This document shows positions 1 to 5,543 of a stretch of DNA of 5,543 nt, one piece after another. Every line of letters starts with the position of its first letter. Position 1 is the stretch's first letter. Below the pieces are notes generated by a model, which saw only the letters and a program-made list of their open reading frames with translations, was not told where the DNA came from and ran no database searches. Source of the DNA: Gammaproteobacteria bacterium (GTDB lineage Bacteria; Pseudomonadota; Gammaproteobacteria; HK1). Position numbers and translations under genes: made by a program. The DNA is taken from assembly GCA_020444775.1 (NCBI GenBank), contig JAGRHX010000865.1, positions 1-5,543 of the forward strand, in the 5' to 3' direction.

Positions 1-993
1 CGGCAGCATGCCGCCGGGAAAGACGTAGCGCTGGATGAAATCGACCCCGCGCCGGTAGTAGTCGAACAGCCTGTCCTCGATGGTGATGATCTGCAGCGCC
101 GCGCGGCCACCGGGGCGCAGCACTTCGCGCAGCTTGGCGAAGAAGGTCGGCCAGTATTCCTCGCCGACCGCCTCGAACATCTCGACCGACACGACATGGT
201 CGAAGGTCTCGTCGATGTCGCGATAGTCGACGAGGCGGACGTCGACCTTGTCCTCCAGCCCCTCCGCCGCGATGCGCGCGACGGCATAGGCATACTGCTC
301 GTGCGACAGGGTGATGGCGGTGACGTGCAGGCCGCGTTCGCGCGCGGCGATGGAGGCGAAGTGGCCCCAGCCGCAGCCGATCTCCAGCACCCGATCGCCG
401 GGCTTCGCGCCCAGGAGGTCGAGCAGGCGGCGGCACTTGTGCAGCTGGGCGCTTTCCAGGCTGTTTGCCCCATCGGCGAAGATGGCCGCGGAATAGGTCA
501 TCGTCGGGTCCAGCCACTCGGCATAGAAGGCGTTCCCGAGATCGTAGTGGTAGGCGATGTTGCGGCGGCTTCCCGGCTTCGAGTTGCTGCGCGCCCGGTG
601 GCGCAGCCGGTTCACCAGGCGCTGCACCATCGCGGAGACATGCGGCCGCGCGAGGGCGTGGCGCCGGTGCAGGGCGCCCAGCTCGATGACGGAGGCGAGG
701 TCCGGGCTGTCCCATTCGGCGGCCATGTAGCCTTCGGCCAGGCCGACCGAGCCACCGAGGAGGAGGCGCCTGAGCACGCGCCAGCGGTGAATGTGGATTT
801 CGGCCGCCGGGCCGGGCTCCGTGCCGACGTGGCGGGTCGTCTGGCCATCGGGCCAGTGCAGGTCCAGGCTGCCGAAGCGGAAATGCCGGTCGATGAAGCG
901 GACCAGCCAGCCGCGCGGCCCCGCCGACGCCCTGCCGGGCCGGGGCCGCGTCGCGCCCTGCTGCATCGTGCGACCGTCGCCCTGAGGCGTCAT
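1..993 (-). CDS. CFAS-family SAM-dependent fatty-acyl-phospholipid methyltransferase, 3' end cut off by the window
   Basis: 331 codons are open from ATG at 993 to the window edge. Family members run to about 400-430 residues, so roughly 70-100 C-terminal residues are missing. The first 30 or so residues are basic and low in complexity. Residues 37-120 match the N-terminal lipid-binding region. HYDLGN (149-154) and LESAQ (179-183) precede the SAM-binding glycine motif VLEIGCGWG (202-210), then DYRD (256-259), SVEMFEAVG (269-277) and YVFPGGMLP (323-331). Family members transfer a methyl group from SAM to the double bond of an unsaturated acyl chain in a membrane phospholipid, acting at the inner face of the cytoplasmic membrane. 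Two bicarbonate ligands of E. coli Cfa appear replaced: Cys139 by Ala169 and His266 by Gln301, while the Glu (Glu274) is kept. It may therefore form a methylated or methylene-type chain (as proposed for UfaM/TmsB-like enzymes) rather than a cyclopropane. The start overlaps the upstream stop by ATGA. Family is certain; the product is inferred. Confidence -1.
   Translation of the reverse strand, partial: MTPQGDGRTMQQGATRPRPGRASAGPRGWLVRFIDRHFRFGSLDLHWPDGQTTRHVGTEPGPAAEIHIHRWRVLRRLLLGGSVGLAEGYMAAEWDSPDLASVIELGALHRRHALARPHVSAMVQRLVNRLRHRARSNSKPGSRRNIAYHYDLGNAFYAEWLDPTMTYSAAIFADGANSLESAQLHKCRRLLDLLGAKPGDRVLEIGCGWGHFASIAARERGLHVTAITLSHEQYAYAVARIAAEGLEDKVDVRLVDYRDIDETFDHVVSVEMFEAVGEEYWPTFFAKLREVLRPGGRAALQIITIEDRLFDYYRRGVDFIQRYVFPGGMLP
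968..980 (+). repeat. Second copy of a 13-base direct repeat spanning the DUF1365/CFAS junction
   Basis: GTGCGACCGTCGC occurs here and again at 1046-1058, 78 bases apart on either side of the ATGA overlap. The copies are read in different frames by the two genes, so protein similarity does not explain them. Confidence -1.
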
Positions 994-1916
994 CCACCCA
1001 TCCCTTGCTCCCGGCCGACGACGGCCGGAGGCGGCGCGGCGGACGGTGCGACCGTCGCACCGGCTGACGGCCGCCGAGCAACGTGTTTATGGTATTTCGC
1101 GCCCTTGCGCCAGAGCCGGAGCGCCTGCCAGTGGATGCCGGCGAGGACTTTCAGGGTCATCAGGGGATAGGCGCAGAAAGCGCGCAGGAGCATGCGGTCG
1201 GTCAGGGGCATCCGCCGGCCGGACAGGGTCGCGCGCAGGAATTCGCCCTCGCCGTCCCGCTCCCGGATCAGCACCGACACGCTCTCGGCCGGCGGCTTGA
1301 TGCGGAAGGCGTAGGTCGCCTCCATGCCGATGAAGGGCGAGACGTAGAAGTCCTTGGCGCAAGACTGCGCCACGACGCCGCGTGCTGCGTCCTCGGGCGC
1401 GACGGGCAGGACATAGGCGTGGCGCTCGCCGAAGGTGTTGTGCACCTCGCATACGACCGCGACCAGCTCACCGTCACGAGTCTCACAGTACCAGATGGAC
1501 AGAGGGTTGAAGACCAGACCCAACACCCTCGGAAAACAGAGCAAACGGACCCTTCCATCCGCGGCGCCGATGCTCTGCCGGGCGAGAAGGTTCCGAACCC
1601 ATTCGAGCAACACACCGCCTTCGTCGGACGCTCTGGCACGCGGCCCCACACGCCCCCCGGCGCGCTCGGCGGGTTGTCCCAACAGACCGTGATCACGATC
1701 GTACAGGCTCAACAGGTTGAAGCGATTGTGCGAGAAAAGCCGACAGCGATCGGCGGTCGACTCCAGCTCGGCCAGATCGATGAGTATCGACAGGAATCGA
1801 TACTCGAAGCGGTAGGGCGCATCGACCCGACGCTGGTGACCGATGCGCATGCTGTACAGGCAGGCCGCGGGATCGGTGTCCACGGCGCTGCAACGAGGTC
1901 TGGAGGCAGGACTCAT
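990..1916 (-). CDS. DUF1365 family protein
   Basis: This 308-residue protein belongs to the DUF1365 family, whose biochemistry is unknown to me. It is recurrently encoded between COG2907 FAD oxidoreductases and CFAS-like methyltransferases, and a role in acyl-chain modification is inferred from that context. Family hallmarks are an N-terminal segment of the type LYxxRxxHxRxxxxxYRFxYR (20-40), FNPLSIWYC (136-144), EVHNTFGERHAY (157-168), KDFYVSPFIGMEATYAFRI (188-206) and a C-terminal hydrophobic/aromatic stretch (about 240-271). Residues after about 280 are an Ala/Pro-rich tail that looks unconserved. I see no signal peptide or clear membrane helix. The start at 1916 overlaps the upstream TGA (ATGA) and has AGGG seven bases upstream. 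A later Met23 would cut the LYxxR motif. Codon style changes near 1450: about 43 of codons 1-156 end in A or T, against about 8 of the next 115 (hand count). Family assignment is strong. Confidence -1.
   Translation of the reverse strand: MSPASRPRCSAVDTDPAACLYSMRIGHQRRVDAPYRFEYRFLSILIDLAELESTADRCRLFSHNRFNLLSLYDRDHGLLGQPAERAGGRVGPRARASDEGGVLLEWVRNLLARQSIGAADGRVRLLCFPRVLGLVFNPLSIWYCETRDGELVAVVCEVHNTFGERHAYVLPVAPEDAARGVVAQSCAKDFYVSPFIGMEATYAFRIKPPAESVSVLIRERDGEGEFLRATLSGRRMPLTDRMLLRAFCAYPLMTLKVLAGIHWQALRLWRKGAKYHKHVARRPSAGATVAPSAAPPPAVVGREQGMGG
1002..1006 (-). promoter_or_regulatory. Ribosome-binding site of the CFAS-like gene inside DUF1365
   Basis: On the minus strand AAGGG lies eight bases before ATG 993, inside the last codons of the DUF1365 gene. 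It supports Met1 over Met10 and suggests coupled or independent re-initiation at the ATGA overlap. Confidence -1.
1011..1028 (-). repeat. Perfect hairpin just upstream of the CFAS-like ribosome-binding site
   Basis: CCGGCCG (1011-1017) and CGGCCGG (1022-1028) form a seven-pair all-G/C stem with a four-base loop. It lies in the unconserved C-terminal tail of DUF1365 and ends four bases before the AAGGG of the next gene. It could affect translation of the methyltransferase or slow mRNA decay. The repeat is visible; the role is inferred, and high G+C makes chance stems more likely. Confidence -1.
1044..1062 (-). repeat. Near-perfect palindrome in the DUF1365 tail
   Basis: CGGTGCGAC and GTCGCACCG flank a single C: nine matching pairs, or an eight-pair stem with a three-base loop as RNA. 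It sits 16 bases from the hairpin at 1011-1028, so the mRNA could carry two tandem stems before the CFAS-like start. Its 13-base core recurs at 968-980. Confidence -1.
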
Positions 1917-3334
1917 GCCGCGACCCTGGTTGGACCGGTCGACAGGTCGTCGCGCGCTGACAGCCAGGGTATGGATTGCTCGGGCAACTCAAGTCGAGGT
2001 TGCACACCGAAACCGGCGGCTACTGCACAGGCGCTGCGAAAGGCGTCCTCATGGAAGCCATGGCCATGGTAGCTGCCGCACAACCAGAGTCCGCGCTCAC
2101 CCTGCAACGGCTGCAGGGCGCGCTGCGCCGCATGAGCGGATTCATCGAACACCGGGTGCTCGTAGTGGGTCTGATACAGGACATGCCTGGGCTCCACGCT
2201 CGGGTTCAGACTGACGAACAGATTCTGCCGCGTGTCCAACCTTTGCAGGTTGTTCATCCAATAGGTGACGGTAGGCGCGCGCCGAACGACGTCGACCCGG
2301 CCGTCGACCAGGCCGTCGTCCTGACTGAGATAGTTCCAGGAAGACCATGCTGCCCGACGACGTGGCATCAGACGCGGGTCCTGGTGCAGCACGACCCGGT
2401 TCGGCTGGTAGCTGATCCGGGAGAGCAGGTCACGCTGTGGCCCGACTTCCAGCATGCGCGCCGCTTGATCGGCGTGCACGGCGAGCACTACCGCGTCGAA
2501 CTCCAGGTTGCGGCCGTCCGCCAGGGTCAGACGCCAGCCTGCGCGCGTACCGTCGCCGCCGCCAACACGAGTACATGGCCGCGATCGCAGATGCGTGACC
2601 GACCGAACCCGGGCATCCAGCAGCGGCGGGCGGGACAGCCCCGCGGCCAGCCGCTGCACGTACCGACGGGAGCCACCGATCACGCTCCGCCAGCGCGGCC
2701 GGCCGCGCAGATCGAGCAGGCCGTGATTGTCGAAGAATCGCGCCAGACTGAACGCCGGGAAATCCAGCATCTGCTGCAGGGGACAGGACCAGATCGCCGC
2801 AGCCATCGGTAGCAGGTAGCGATCCCGCAATATCGGCGAGAAGCGTTGCCGCACCAGGAATGCCCCCAGGGTCATGGCGACGGTCCGGGTATCGCCCGGG
2901 TCGCTGGCGGCGAGCCGCCGCGCACAGCGGTTGAAGCGCAGGATCTCGGTCAGCAGCCGATAGAAGCGAGGAGACAGCAGATTGGTGCGCTGCGCGAGCA
3001 GCCCGTTCAAGCCCATGCTGCCGAACTCGAAGCGGCCCTCATCCACCGACAGGCCGAACGACATGTCGGTCGCATGGGTCTCGACCCGCAGATGCTCGAG
3101 CAGTGTGCTGAACAGTGGATAGTTCCTGTGGTTGTAGACTATGAAGCCGGTATCCACCTGGGCTTCGCCGTCGCTCAGTGGCAGCGTGACGGTGTTGCTG
3201 TGTCCGCCGAGCCGAGAGTCGGCCTCGAGCAGGGTGACGTCATGTTCCGGGTCCAACAGCCACGCGGCGCCGAGCCCCGCGATGCCGGTGCCGACGACGG
3301 CGATACTTGATCTGGGACGTACTATTCCAATCAT
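1913..3334 (-). CDS. FAD-dependent oxidoreductase, amine-oxidase fold (COG2907 type)
   Basis: This soluble flavoprotein has 473 residues. The N-terminal Rossmann motif IAVVGTGIAGLGAAWLL (11-27; GxGxxG at 15-20) is followed by the ribose-binding acid Glu37 in LLEADSRLGGHSNT, and then DTGFIVYN (61-68). Diagnostic COG2907 blocks are SYQPNRVVLHQDPRLMP (308-324), SSWNY (331-335), TYWMNNLQ (357-364) and the C-terminal flavin motif GLWLCGSYHGHGFHEDAF (415-432). Relatives act with CFAS-like methyltransferases on acyl chains: the family is fused to the CFAS domain in plant cyclopropane synthases, and a related flavoprotein role is proposed in 10-methyl and furan fatty-acid synthesis. A desaturation or reduction step is likely, but the direction is unknown. 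The frame stays open upstream for another 251 codons, but those lie antisense to the diiron gene and resemble nothing. The chosen ATG directly precedes the Rossmann strand. No convincing ribosome-binding site precedes it, and the first codons are A/T-rich. It is first in the three-gene operon. Confidence -1.
   Translation of the reverse strand: MIGIVRPRSSIAVVGTGIAGLGAAWLLDPEHDVTLLEADSRLGGHSNTVTLPLSDGEAQVDTGFIVYNHRNYPLFSTLLEHLRVETHATDMSFGLSVDEGRFEFGSMGLNGLLAQRTNLLSPRFYRLLTEILRFNRCARRLAASDPGDTRTVAMTLGAFLVRQRFSPILRDRYLLPMAAAIWSCPLQQMLDFPAFSLARFFDNHGLLDLRGRPRWRSVIGGSRRYVQRLAAGLSRPPLLDARVRSVTHLRSRPCTRVGGGDGTRAGWRLTLADGRNLEFDAVVLAVHADQAARMLEVGPQRDLLSRISYQPNRVVLHQDPRLMPRRRAAWSSWNYLSQDDGLVDGRVDVVRRAPTVTYWMNNLQRLDTRQNLFVSLNPSVEPRHVLYQTHYEHPVFDESAHAAQRALQPLQGERGLWLCGSYHGHGFHEDAFRSACAVAAGFGVQPRLELPEQSIPWLSARDDLSTGPTRVAA
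1924..1927 (-). promoter_or_regulatory. Ribosome-binding site of the DUF1365 gene inside the FAD gene
   Basis: On the minus strand AGGG sits seven bases before ATG 1916, within the last codons of the FAD oxidoreductase gene. With the ATGA overlap it favours this start over the internal Met23. Confidence -1.
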
Positions 3335-3409
3335 GTCTGGGTTATGGTTGGCAGTTGGCCGAGTGATCGGCAACCAGAGAAACCGGCGAGGAGCAAGCTG
3401 AGGCCCTTG
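3335..3409. promoter_or_regulatory. Divergent intergenic region, probable two-way promoter/operator
   Basis: These 75 bases separate the start codons of the minus-strand lipid operon and the plus-strand diiron gene, so promoters for both should lie here. An imperfect dyad runs from 3354 to 3374: GTT-g-GCCGA, four bases, then TCGGCAAC, with one bulged base. An outer GGTTG (3346-3350) pairs with CAACC (3371-3375). The dyad includes TGATCG (3364-3369), which resembles the -35 TGATC of RpoE/ChrR-type ECF promoters. On the minus strand, CGATCA is followed 16 bases later by CCATAAC, ending just before the ATG at 3334; that would give a nearly leaderless transcript. No good -10 follows TGATCG on the plus strand. 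The inverted repeat is visible; its regulatory role is inferred. Confidence -1.
3400..3403 (+). promoter_or_regulatory. Ribosome-binding site that fixes the diiron gene start
   Basis: GAGG lies six bases before ATG 3410. The only longer option, ATG 3344, has no comparable site and would add 22 poorly structured residues. It would also leave only nine bases between the two divergent start codons. Confidence -1.
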
Positions 3410-4279
3410 ATGCTGTATCCAGAACTGTTCAAAACACTCGAGAGCGCGCGGTGGGACATGGAAACCGGCGTGCCATGGTCGGACTTCGAGGATGACAAGC
3501 TGACCGAGGAGCAGGCCCAGACGGTGCGCATGAACGCGATTACCGAGTGGTCCGCGCTGCCTGCGACCGAAATGTTCCTGCGTGACAACATGGGCGATTC
3601 GGATTTCTCGGCTTTCATGTCGGTCTGGTTCTACGAGGAGCAGAAGCACGCGCTGGTGCTGATGGAGTATCTGCGACGCTTCAGACCGGCGCTCGCGCCC
3701 ACCGAGGAGGAGCTCTCGAAGGTCCGATTTCCTTTCGACCCGGCACCTCCTTTCGAGACGCTGATGCTGCACTATTGCGGCGAAATCCGCCTCAATCAGT
3801 GGTACCGGCGAGCGTCTGCGTGGCATACGGAACCGGTGATCAAACGGATCTACGAGCTGCTGGCGGCCGACGAGGCACGCCACGCCGGTGCCTACTTCAG
3901 GTACATGCGCCGGGCCATAGACCGGTTCGGCGATCTGGCCAGCCTCTCCTTCGCCCGTATCGGGGTGCTGATGGCGAACACGCGCTCTTCGCGTGCCCTG
4001 CACCCGACCAACCTGCACGTGAGCAAGGAACACTATCCGCTCGACACCGTGCAAAGCCGGCTCCCGGATCCGGGCTGGCTGGAGCACTGGCTGGACAGCC
4101 AGATCAACTTCGACAAGAGCTGGGAAGAGAAGGTCAGCCGCACCATCCTACGCAAACTGTCGAACCTGTTCGGCACCGATTTCCAGTCGATCCGCGACCT
4201 GCGCGCGTTCCGTAAGCTGCTCGAGGGCAACGCGGCGCTTCCCGAGTCGGAGTCCGAACAGCAGGCCTCACCCGCCTGA
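3410..4279 (+). CDS. Diiron acyl-ACP desaturase-like / ferritin-like protein
   Basis: A soluble, helical protein of 289 residues. It carries a complete carboxylate-bridged diiron ligand set: Glu46 (ITEWSALP), Glu77 and His80 (WFYEEQKH, 73-80), Glu125 (HYCGEIRL, 121-128), and Glu155 and His158 (LAADEARHAGAYF, 151-163). The two ExxH motifs match EENRH and DEKRH of stearoyl-ACP desaturases, and AADExRHxxAY is close to that family's last ligand helix. Such enzymes activate O2 at the iron pair to desaturate or oxygenate an acyl chain carried on ACP or CoA. The threonine beside the third ligand in plant enzymes (QERAT) is Leu128 here, so chemistry or substrate may differ. Length is near that of small bacterial members such as mycobacterial DesA2. 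No membrane helix or signal peptide is seen. It is divergent from the lipid operon and 142 bases upstream of the photolyase. Fold and metal site are well supported; substrate is unknown, and a ferritin-like oxidase or stress role is an alternative. Confidence -1.
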   Translation: MLYPELFKTLESARWDMETGVPWSDFEDDKLTEEQAQTVRMNAITEWSALPATEMFLRDNMGDSDFSAFMSVWFYEEQKHALVLMEYLRRFRPALAPTEEELSKVRFPFDPAPPFETLMLHYCGEIRLNQWYRRASAWHTEPVIKRIYELLAADEARHAGAYFRYMRRAIDRFGDLASLSFARIGVLMANTRSSRALHPTNLHVSKEHYPLDTVQSRLPDPGWLEHWLDSQINFDKSWEEKVSRTILRKLSNLFGTDFQSIRDLRAFRKLLEGNAALPESESEQQASPA

Positions 4280-4328
4280 GCCGGTCCAAGGGCCATCCCA
4301 CCTCTCAACCGCGCCGGTGGTCGTCCCA

Positions 4329-4353
4329 GATGGCGGCCGTCGGCAGCGTCATC
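4329..4353 (+). terminator. Weak hairpin after the diiron gene, possible attenuator or factor-dependent terminator
   Basis: GATGGCG (4329-4335) pairs with CGTCATC (4347-4353) over seven pairs including one G-U. An inner GCC/GGC extends it, with a two-base bulge. It lies 50 bases after the diiron stop and has no T-run, so it is not a classical intrinsic terminator. Confidence -1.
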
Positions 4354-4364
4354 CCCGCGCGGTC

Positions 4365-4390
4365 TGATCGTTCGCCGAGCATCGGGCGTA
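4365..4390 (+). promoter_or_regulatory. Candidate ECF-sigma (RpoE/ChrR-like) promoter for the photolyase
   Basis: TGATCG (4365-4370) and CGTA (4387-4390) are separated by 16 bases. This resembles the TGATC -35 and CGTA-type -10 of RpoE/ChrR-type ECF promoters as I remember them. Transcription would begin near 4397-4400, giving a leader of about 22-25 bases before ATG 4422. CFAS, COG2907 and photolyase genes belong to the singlet-oxygen regulon in several bacteria, which makes this plausible. The match is short and no sigma factor gene is in the window, so confidence is modest. Confidence -1.
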
Positions 4391-4421
4391 GTGGCCCGCA
4401 AATTCCCGCAAGGCACCGCTC

Positions 4422-5543
4422 ATGTCCAGCACCATCGTTCTGTTCCGATCCGATCTGCGTCTGGACGACAACCCGGCTCTGGCGCACGCGGCACGCCAAT
4501 CGCGCCCGGTGATACCGCTGTTCGTCCTCGGCGAGGACCGCTCCGACTGCGCCGACCTGCGCACCCTCACGCAGTCGCCGGGCGCGGCCAGCAAGGTCTG
4601 GCTGGACGCATCGCTGCGCGCCCTGGATCGGTCCCTGCGTGAGCTTGGCTCGCGACTCGTCATCAGCCGCGGCGTGCAGAACACCGTGGTCGACGAGCTC
4701 ATCGACCGCTTCGAGATTGGTGAAGTGGTCTGGAATCGCCGCTACGAGCCGGCCCACATCGCCGAGGATGGTGCGCTCAAGCAGATGCTCAGGGATCGCG
4801 GCATCCAGGCGCGCAGCTTCAACGGCAATCTGCTGACCGAGCCGGCGCGCATCGAGAACAAGCAGGGCCAGCCCTACAAGGTCTTCACTCCCTTCTACAA
4901 GCACTGCCAGACCCTGGACGTGGACCTGCCGGCGAATCCGCCGACCCGACTGGCGGCGCCGCCCGAGTGGCCACGCTCGCTGGACGTGGACGCGCTGCGG
5001 CTGCGTCCGGCCATCGACTGGGACAGCGGGATTCGCGAGCTCTGGCAACCCGGTGAGAACGGTGCCCGGGCATTGCTGGAGGGCTTCGTCGAAGAGCCCA
5101 TGCCCGGCTACCAGGAACGCCGGGACGTACCCTCTGAGCCGGGCACATCGAGACTGTCACCGTATCTGCACTTCGGCGAGATCAGCCCACGCCGGATCGT
5201 GCTCGAGGCACGCCATGCCGCGAACGGCGCGACGCCCTTCATCCGTCAGCTTTATTGGCGCGAGTTCGCGCATCATCTGCTCTTCCACTTTCCCCATACC
5301 GTGGACCGCCCCTTGAACGAGCGCTTCGAGGACTTCCCGTGGCGGGACGACCCGAACGCGCTGGGTCGCTGGCAACGCGGGCAGACCGGCTATCCACTGG
5401 TCGACGCCGGTATGCGCGAACTCTGGCACACCGGCTGGATGCACAACCGGGTGCGGATGATCGTTGCCTCGTTCCTCACCAAGCACCTGCTGATCGACTG
5501 GCGGTATGGCGAGCAATGGTTCTGGGACACGCTGGTGGATGCC
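4422..5543 (+). CDS. phrB: Class I CPD deoxyribodipyrimidine photolyase, C-terminus cut off by the window
   Basis: 374 codons are open to the window edge. Family members have about 470-480 residues, so the last 100 or so (including the third Trp of the electron chain) are missing. The enzyme uses blue/near-UV light and reduced FAD to split cyclobutane pyrimidine dimers in DNA. The N-terminal alpha/beta antenna domain starts with STIVLFRSDLRLDDNPAL (3-20) and runs to about residue 130. The FAD domain shows FTPFYK (155-160), TSRLSPYLHFGEISPR (242-257), QLYWREF (276-282), RWQRGQTGYPLVDAGMRE (316-333) and WMHNRVRM (339-346). Trp307 and Trp360 match two of the Trp-triad positions, and Asn342 is the conserved flavin-facing Asn of E. 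coli photolyase. Gln276 stands where E. coli has the substrate-contacting Glu274. A TAG in frame at 4389-4391 closes the frame upstream, and AAGG (4410-4413) lies eight bases before the ATG, so the start is secure. The antenna pigment (folate or deazaflavin) cannot be told. Confidence -1.
   Translation, partial: MSSTIVLFRSDLRLDDNPALAHAARQSRPVIPLFVLGEDRSDCADLRTLTQSPGAASKVWLDASLRALDRSLRELGSRLVISRGVQNTVVDELIDRFEIGEVVWNRRYEPAHIAEDGALKQMLRDRGIQARSFNGNLLTEPARIENKQGQPYKVFTPFYKHCQTLDVDLPANPPTRLAAPPEWPRSLDVDALRLRPAIDWDSGIRELWQPGENGARALLEGFVEEPMPGYQERRDVPSEPGTSRLSPYLHFGEISPRRIVLEARHAANGATPFIRQLYWREFAHHLLFHFPHTVDRPLNERFEDFPWRDDPNALGRWQRGQTGYPLVDAGMRELWHTGWMHNRVRMIVASFLTKHLLIDWRYGEQWFWDTLVDA

Follow-up and report, generated by a model that had tools for sequence, protein, structure and literature searches.

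Genes encoded at the locus

The window, that is, the whole 5,543-base stretch from a gammaproteobacterial assembly analyzed here, is apparently an entire contig. It carries three genes resembling the ufaD-ufaO-ufaM set for furan fatty acid synthesis, which are divergent from a gene for a 289-residue diiron protein followed by a photolyase gene (Table 1). This arrangement of all five genes, described in an earlier note made from the sequence alone, was confirmed by the open reading frames and Pfam matches. The furan trio is known already, and the new point is the diiron protein and its recurrent linkage with ufa genes. The stop codon of the flavin adenine dinucleotide (FAD) protein gene and the start codon of the DUF1365 gene share a four-base ATGA, as do the DUF1365 stop and the start of the cyclopropane synthase-like (CFAS) gene. 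With both junctions overlapping in this way, the three genes appear to form a single coupled operon. The start of the diiron gene at position 3410 is favored over that at 3344, because nearly all of 33 aligned sequences, including that of the window, begin at or close to MLYPEL. No Rfam matches are found in the window.

Table 1. Features of the window (strand is relative to the sequence as presented)
Feature	Position	Strand	Remarks
CMAS/CFAS-family S-adenosylmethionine (SAM) methyltransferase, UfaM-like	1-993	-	PF02353, E 5e-66; start complete, 3' end cut by window edge
DUF1365 protein, UfaO-like (furan-forming oxygenase family)	990-1916	-	308 aa; PF07103, E 9.5e-79
FAD amine-oxidase/phytoene-desaturase-like protein, UfaD-like	1913-3334	-	473 aa; PF01593, E 5.4e-21
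Divergent intergenic region, ufaD/diiron gene	3335-3409	.	75 bp
Diiron protein, acyl-ACP (acyl carrier protein) desaturase/R2-like superfamily	3410-4279	+	289 aa; PF03405, 28.9 bits (cut-off 22.7)
ChrR-type promoter match, TGATC-N17-CGTAGT	4365-4392	+	29 bp upstream of photolyase ATG
DNA photolyase/cryptochrome-family gene	4422-5543	+	374 aa present, 3' end cut by window edge; PF00875, E 7.3e-48; PF03441, E 1e-46

Correspondence of the trio to UfaD-UfaO-UfaM

Judged from protein family and gene order, the trio is the published UfaD-UfaO-UfaM set. PF01593, PF07103, and PF02353 are encoded together in one operon with four-base overlaps, and both the families and their order match those of RPA2571-2570-2569 (ufaD-ufaO-ufaM) in Rhodopseudomonas palustris; UfaM, UfaD, and UfaO of Rhodobacter sphaeroides (RSP2144, RSP1091, and RSP1090, respectively) belong to the same three families (PMC7380195). 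In the published pathway, UfaM converts the cis-vaccenate chain of phospholipids into 11Me-12t-18:1, UfaD, which binds NAD and FAD and shares identity with phytoene dehydrogenases and desaturases, gives the 10t,12t diene, and UfaO is the DUF1365 protein (PMC7380195). The furan fatty acid formed from cis-vaccenate is 9M5-FuFA. The guess of a furan-type fatty acid in the earlier note therefore fits known biology. The closest Protein Data Bank sequence to the UfaD-like protein is the amine oxidase LkcE (E 1.3e-30). No solved relative of the UfaO-like protein was found by sequence search, and its fold weakly resembles a β-barrel.

The difference from the published system should be noted. The window has a diiron gene divergent from ufaD, whereas the word "diiron" occurs once in the main text of the furan pathway paper, in the title of a reference (PMC7380195). 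Insertion of oxygen by the diiron protein, one of the roles suggested earlier, was ruled out because UfaO sufficed in a cell-free extract (PMC7380195).

Structural features of the diiron protein

PF03405 (FA_desaturase_2) is the sole match above the cut-off among the four Pfam hits of the diiron protein; the scores for Rubrerythrin (20.1 bits versus 22.8) and EncFtn-like (21.9 bits versus 27) do not reach their cut-offs. Among the 82 diiron genes found in 200 Burkholderiales genomes, 34 pass the PF03405 cut-off (E 0.001). The match in a 35th genome above the cut-off (G297) lies at another place than the diiron gene. Acyl-ACP desaturases hold their carboxylate-bridged diiron center with the ligand pattern E, ExxH, E, ExxH. 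The ligands predicted for the diiron protein, Glu46, Glu77-x-x-His80, Glu125, and Glu155-x-x-His158, are invariant across the 33 aligned sequences, and the last three groups align with those of DesA2 from M. tuberculosis.

The predicted structure has the desaturase fold, aligning best with desaturase and R2-type folds over 200 to 244 residues; R2-like oxidases, aldehyde-deformylating oxidase, and the azoxy synthase VlmB follow the desaturases closely in the ranking. The window protein thus has the Pfam cut-off, the metal-ligand pattern, and the top-scoring fold in common with the acyl-ACP desaturases (FA_desaturase_2: castor, ivy, and DesA2), though its identity to the castor and ivy structures is 11 to 13%. 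Unlike that family, it has a conserved C-terminal stretch, HPTNLHV...DTxQSxxPxP. Residues 198 to 223 (encoded within 3410-4279) read HPTNLHV...PxDTxQSxxPxPxW, which serves as a signature of the diiron family. The median identity to the window over 71 loci is 68% for the diiron protein, 43% for UfaD, and 39% for UfaO. These features indicate a conserved diiron protein that resembles fatty acid desaturases and may be enzymatically active. In a literature search, with most subscription journals outside it, no paper was found that connects the diiron/ferritin-like family with either furan fatty acids or the formation of unsaturated fatty acids in bacteria.

Association of the diiron gene with ufa genes

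Three genome samples, of 200 (Burkholderiales), 143 (class-wide), and 398 genomes, were used, in which many genomes consist of many contigs; Fisher tests on co-occurrence ignore kinship. The diiron gene is found in 82 and DUF1365 in 91 of the 200 Burkholderiales genomes. Both are present in 60, only the diiron gene in 22, only DUF1365 in 31, and neither in 87 (odds ratio 7.65, p 4.5e-11), so that DUF1365 accompanies the diiron gene in 60 of 82 genomes and occurs in 31 of the 118 without it. Among the 167 genomes with PF00487, the membrane-desaturase family, the corresponding counts are 59, 21, 28, and 59. The odds ratio of 5.9 persisting there indicates that general aerobic gene content is not the whole explanation.

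In 37 of the 60 genomes with both genes, the pair lies on one contig, 1.4 to 5.6 kb apart; the distance is at least 126 kb in 4, and the genes are on different contigs in 19. The earlier note had called for a count of the trio near diiron homologues; the association it proposed exists, with DUF1365 linked within 6 kb in 37 of 60. Excluding the linked genomes (23, 22, 31, and 87 remaining) leaves an odds ratio of 2.9 (p 0.005), where some of the 19 pairs on different contigs may be linkage broken by contig ends. Of the 37 linked pairs, 29 are divergent, like that of the window. In the other eight, both genes point the same way and the diiron gene comes behind the last recognized gene of the ufa operon, which is snoaL in five (77-118 bp) and a short-chain dehydrogenase/reductase (SDR) gene in three (252-337 bp). 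In a separate locus set, the best 80 of 583 confirmed loci from species genomes, which is biased to close relatives, ufaD lies within the fetched DNA at 37 loci. Caldimonas manganoxidans (L074) and a Polaromonas isolate (L038) are examples of bacteria with the linked cluster.

The class-wide sample contains DUF1365 in 39 genomes, the diiron gene in 5, and both in 3. The diiron gene also stands among other genes, with no trio, at loci L002 (Gammaproteobacteria), L033 (Acidithiobacillus), and L166 and L167 (class sample). Of the association proposed earlier, the enrichment and the close linkage stand, whereas an obligate partnership does not, as 22 of the 82 diiron genomes and 36 of the 39 DUF1365 genomes lack the partner. 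The association in Burkholderiales is real but optional, and it is common to the window and L027, which stands closest to it on the trees.

The window and L027 are joined both in the diiron tree and in the UfaD and UfaO tree, which is consistent with old co-inheritance, though both are long branches there. Both are quick trees with no bootstrap; the diiron tree holds 160 proteins, 155 of them different, and the duplicates also enter its linkage counts. In L027 (7934-10819), a photolyase gene and a short-chain dehydrogenase gene lie between ufaD and the diiron gene.

Distribution of FabA and membrane desaturases

A FabA match above the cut-off occurs in 12 of the 200 Burkholderiales genomes, and none of these 12 is among the 82 diiron-positive ones (p 0.0017). 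Nor is FabA found in another set of 13 diiron genomes, 12 of them new and five of these new ones belonging to Acidithiobacillus or Igneacidithiobacillus. The class sample has FabA in 67 of 143 genomes and in 0 of the 5 that are diiron-positive. FabA is thus absent from all 94 distinct diiron genomes tested and, seen from the other side, the diiron gene is absent from the FabA-positive genomes of both samples (0 of 12 and 0 of 67). This pattern fits, without proving, an O2-dependent acyl-ACP desaturase as an alternative route to unsaturated fatty acids.

How FabA-less Betaproteobacteria make unsaturated fatty acids has been called unclear for Neisseria and Laribacter (PMC3125206, 2011) and for R. 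solanacearum, for which a UfaA homologue was noted (PMC4549310, 2015). The UfaA/FabX route of FabA-less bacteria addresses the same gap as the role proposed here for the diiron protein. UfaA, a flavoprotein of the 2-nitropropane dioxygenase type, has no relation to the diiron fold; it was reportedly studied by Isabella and Clark in 2011.

PF00487 is found in 167 of the 200 Burkholderiales genomes, and 27 of the 200 have neither FabA, PF00487, nor the diiron gene. Because PF00487 and the diiron gene co-occur (80 of 82 diiron genomes versus 87 of the 118 others), the diiron protein does not replace the PF00487 membrane desaturases, and that role was ruled out. The diiron genomes without PF00487 are G222 and G312 of the 82 and G027 of the 12 new ones. 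In the 31 genomes with DUF1365 only, inspection by eye of the matches listed gave no PF00487 gene in the position of the diiron gene beside DUF1365.

Possible role of the diiron protein

We propose, with a probability of roughly 40%, that the window is a photo-oxidative-stress lipid locus in which a soluble O2-dependent acyl-ACP desaturase, namely the diiron protein, supplies the cis-monounsaturated chain for UfaM. Acting on acyl-ACP in bacteria without the FabA route to unsaturated fatty acids, it would produce this chain with O2. By the published chemistry, transferred through family and gene order, UfaM would then methylate the cis-monounsaturated phospholipid acyl chain, UfaD would introduce the second double bond, and UfaO would close the furan ring by inserting oxygen derived from O2. 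The diiron gene often stands beside furan and light-response genes (litR, photolyase-related, and glutathione peroxidase), and substrate supply and furan synthesis may rise together. The substrate, product, and electron donor of the diiron enzyme, and the co-regulation, are postulated from these relationships. Among the roles suggested in the earlier note, a double bond upstream of UfaM seems the most plausible; its interpretation as a whole is partly supported, and the joint chemistry is inferred.

Several observations weigh against this proposal. Few Burkholderiales genomes carry FabA (12 of 200), and kinship could explain its exclusion; in the class sample the diiron-FabA overlap of 0 compares with only 2.3 expected. 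In the diiron-positive genome G183, a 1749-residue frame gives FabA-model matches that stay below the cut-off. The association of PF00487 with the diiron gene is positive, as given above, and this family is also present in 11 of the 12 further diiron genomes. DUF1365 is missing from 22 of the 82 diiron genomes, including G188 and G277, whose diiron contigs of 5.19 and 4.59 Mb are nearly whole genomes, and the diiron gene is missing from 36 of the 39 DUF1365 genomes of the class-wide sample. The diiron tree requires at least 23 changes of the linked state (46.4 on average in shuffles), and the window and L027 both sit on long branches where they join. The diiron loci showed no common regulatory motif. 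Finally, rfaE2, a heptose adenylyltransferase-like gene named from its appearance rather than by a family scan, is the commonest neighbor: at 84 of 157 distinct diiron loci (161 minus four duplicate fetches) it lies behind the diiron gene in the same direction, and at 61 of them the distance is within 100 bp.

This last observation favors a different explanation, in which the diiron gene is a syntenic neighbor with a general aerobic function of its own, for example in the envelope together with rfaE2, and the ufa cluster adjoins it in some lineages with no shared pathway. Several loci without ufa genes show the order purB-glutathione S-transferase-diiron-rfaE2/glnE, and the loci with no trio (L002, L033, L166, and L167) and the 22 genomes without DUF1365 agree with it. 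However, linkage to ufa genes is also seen without adjoining rfaE2, in the window and L027, and in two orientations, including the position after the ufa operon. Co-occurrence also remains in excess once the 37 linked genomes are removed, though contig ends may have broken linkage in some of the 19 pairs on different contigs. We regard this explanation as unlikely, but as the main rival. Given the FabA pattern and the route left open in the papers on the one hand and the PF00487 and kinship caveats on the other, the desaturase is placed first, tentatively.

The linkage with ufa genes would also suit a diiron protein that tailors the furan or methylated acyl chain by extra desaturation, hydroxylation, or epoxidation, on phospholipid or acyl-ACP, to give a variant furan or conjugated lipid. 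The closeness of R2-like oxidases, aldehyde-deformylating oxidase, and VlmB in the fold ranking, and two Variovorax loci (L063 and L069) with ufaM-like, glutathione peroxidase, and diiron genes and no ufaD or ufaO in the fetched DNA, point in this direction. Such tailoring is nevertheless quite improbable, since the diiron gene occurs without DUF1365 in 22 of 82 genomes and since its conservation (68%, against 43% for UfaD and 39% for UfaO) is more in keeping with a core substrate than with a speciality lipid. More improbable still is a rubrerythrin- or ferritin-like function, in peroxide removal or iron storage under photo-oxidative stress. Some homologues are named "ferritin-like domain-containing protein" in the source records, the Rubrerythrin and EncFtn-like matches are weak and below the cut-off, and glutathione peroxidase is the nearest recognized upstream gene at 19 of the 157 loci; the fold alignment over 200 to 244 residues and the sole Pfam match above the cut-off, PF03405, however, both speak against it.

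A broader form of the desaturase proposal, in which numerous Beta- and Gammaproteobacteria without FabA use the diiron protein as an unrecognized O2-dependent acyl-ACP desaturase for monounsaturated fatty acids, and in which it was recruited repeatedly to a light-responsive furan cluster as the substrate supplier, is doubtful. If true, it would help explain how Betaproteobacteria lacking FabA/FabB synthesize unsaturated fatty acids aerobically. It would also fill in the substrate end of furan fatty acid synthesis in bacteria and link this synthesis to light-responsive regulation. A conserved desaturase-like protein that is absent from the sampled FabA-positive genomes and often lies beside genes needing an unsaturated substrate offers a gene-level test of the unclear route.

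Regulatory sites and light-response genes

The trio and the photolyase had been described earlier as companions in singlet-oxygen/RpoE-ChrR regulons. At the photolyase this is supported by the site at 4365-4392, which has one mismatch to the RpoE2/ChrR-type extracytoplasmic function (ECF) sigma factor promoter form (0.04 expected; 8 of 200 shuffled sequences had one). Several ChrR site forms were tried, and this site came from the published form with a 17-base spacer; an 18-base spacer gave no excess. Between ufaD and the diiron gene (3335-3409), in contrast, no ChrR-type site matches even at three mismatches. A TGATC-N17-CGTAAT-type promoter, taken as the mark of the regulon, is thus found at the photolyase only. 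The Shewanella RpoE2 (RpoE-ChrR) regulon shares the TGATC-N17-CGTA-type promoter with the photolyase of the window, whereas ufaD and the diiron gene have no such promoter at one mismatch or fewer and neither rpoE nor chrR lies inside the window. In S. oneidensis, for which a list of RpoE2/ChrR-type promoters is available, cfa and phrB are predicted regulon members (PMC4336711). No sigma-70 promoters or terminators were found in 3250-4480.

The published LitR operator has the form T(G/A)TACA-N12-TGTA(C/T)A (PMC9758184). No LitR-type operator was found in 3335-3409, and no exact match in the window or in the 156 other distinct diiron loci. A PplR/LitR operator match with two mismatches at 2233-2256 (0.04 expected) lies inside ufaD, not upstream of a gene, and is probably due to chance. 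Among the shared k-mers listed upstream of the diiron gene, none occurs in more than 9 of 74 linked loci.

The Pseudomonas LitR/PplR cluster contains light-inducible genes, with phrB, SDR, FAD oxidoreductase, and UfaM among its members (PMC9758184). As in the window, the photolyase of P. mendocina is beside FAD and UfaM genes, and phrB and ufaM of P. putida are light-inducible; the diiron gene, however, is not named in the cluster as described in the accessible text (PMC9758184), and no litR is present within the 5,543 bases of the window.

In the wider neighborhood, clustering and Pfam scans place chalcone-isomerase-like, MFS_2, DUF3833, SDR, and SnoaL-like genes after ufaD-ufaO-ufaM. The vicinity of the diiron gene holds a MerR/B12-binding LitR-like regulator, a photolyase-related gene, and a glutathione peroxidase. 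Over the 157 distinct loci, the recognized gene closest upstream of the diiron gene, up to 1.5 kb away, is a LitR-like gene at 27 and a photolyase-related gene at 18, both in every case in the same direction as the diiron gene; at 19 loci it is glutathione peroxidase and at 14 it is ufaD. In the Variovorax loci L063 and L069, it is ufaM-like and glutathione peroxidase genes that lie beside the diiron gene. In L167 (9661-11990), whose fetched 19.9 kb contains no ufa genes, a co-directional photolyase gene starts 2 bp after the diiron gene, in the same order as in the window. Gaps between the diiron gene and rfaE2 are as short as 5 bp, a hint of a connection to the envelope in Burkholderiales.

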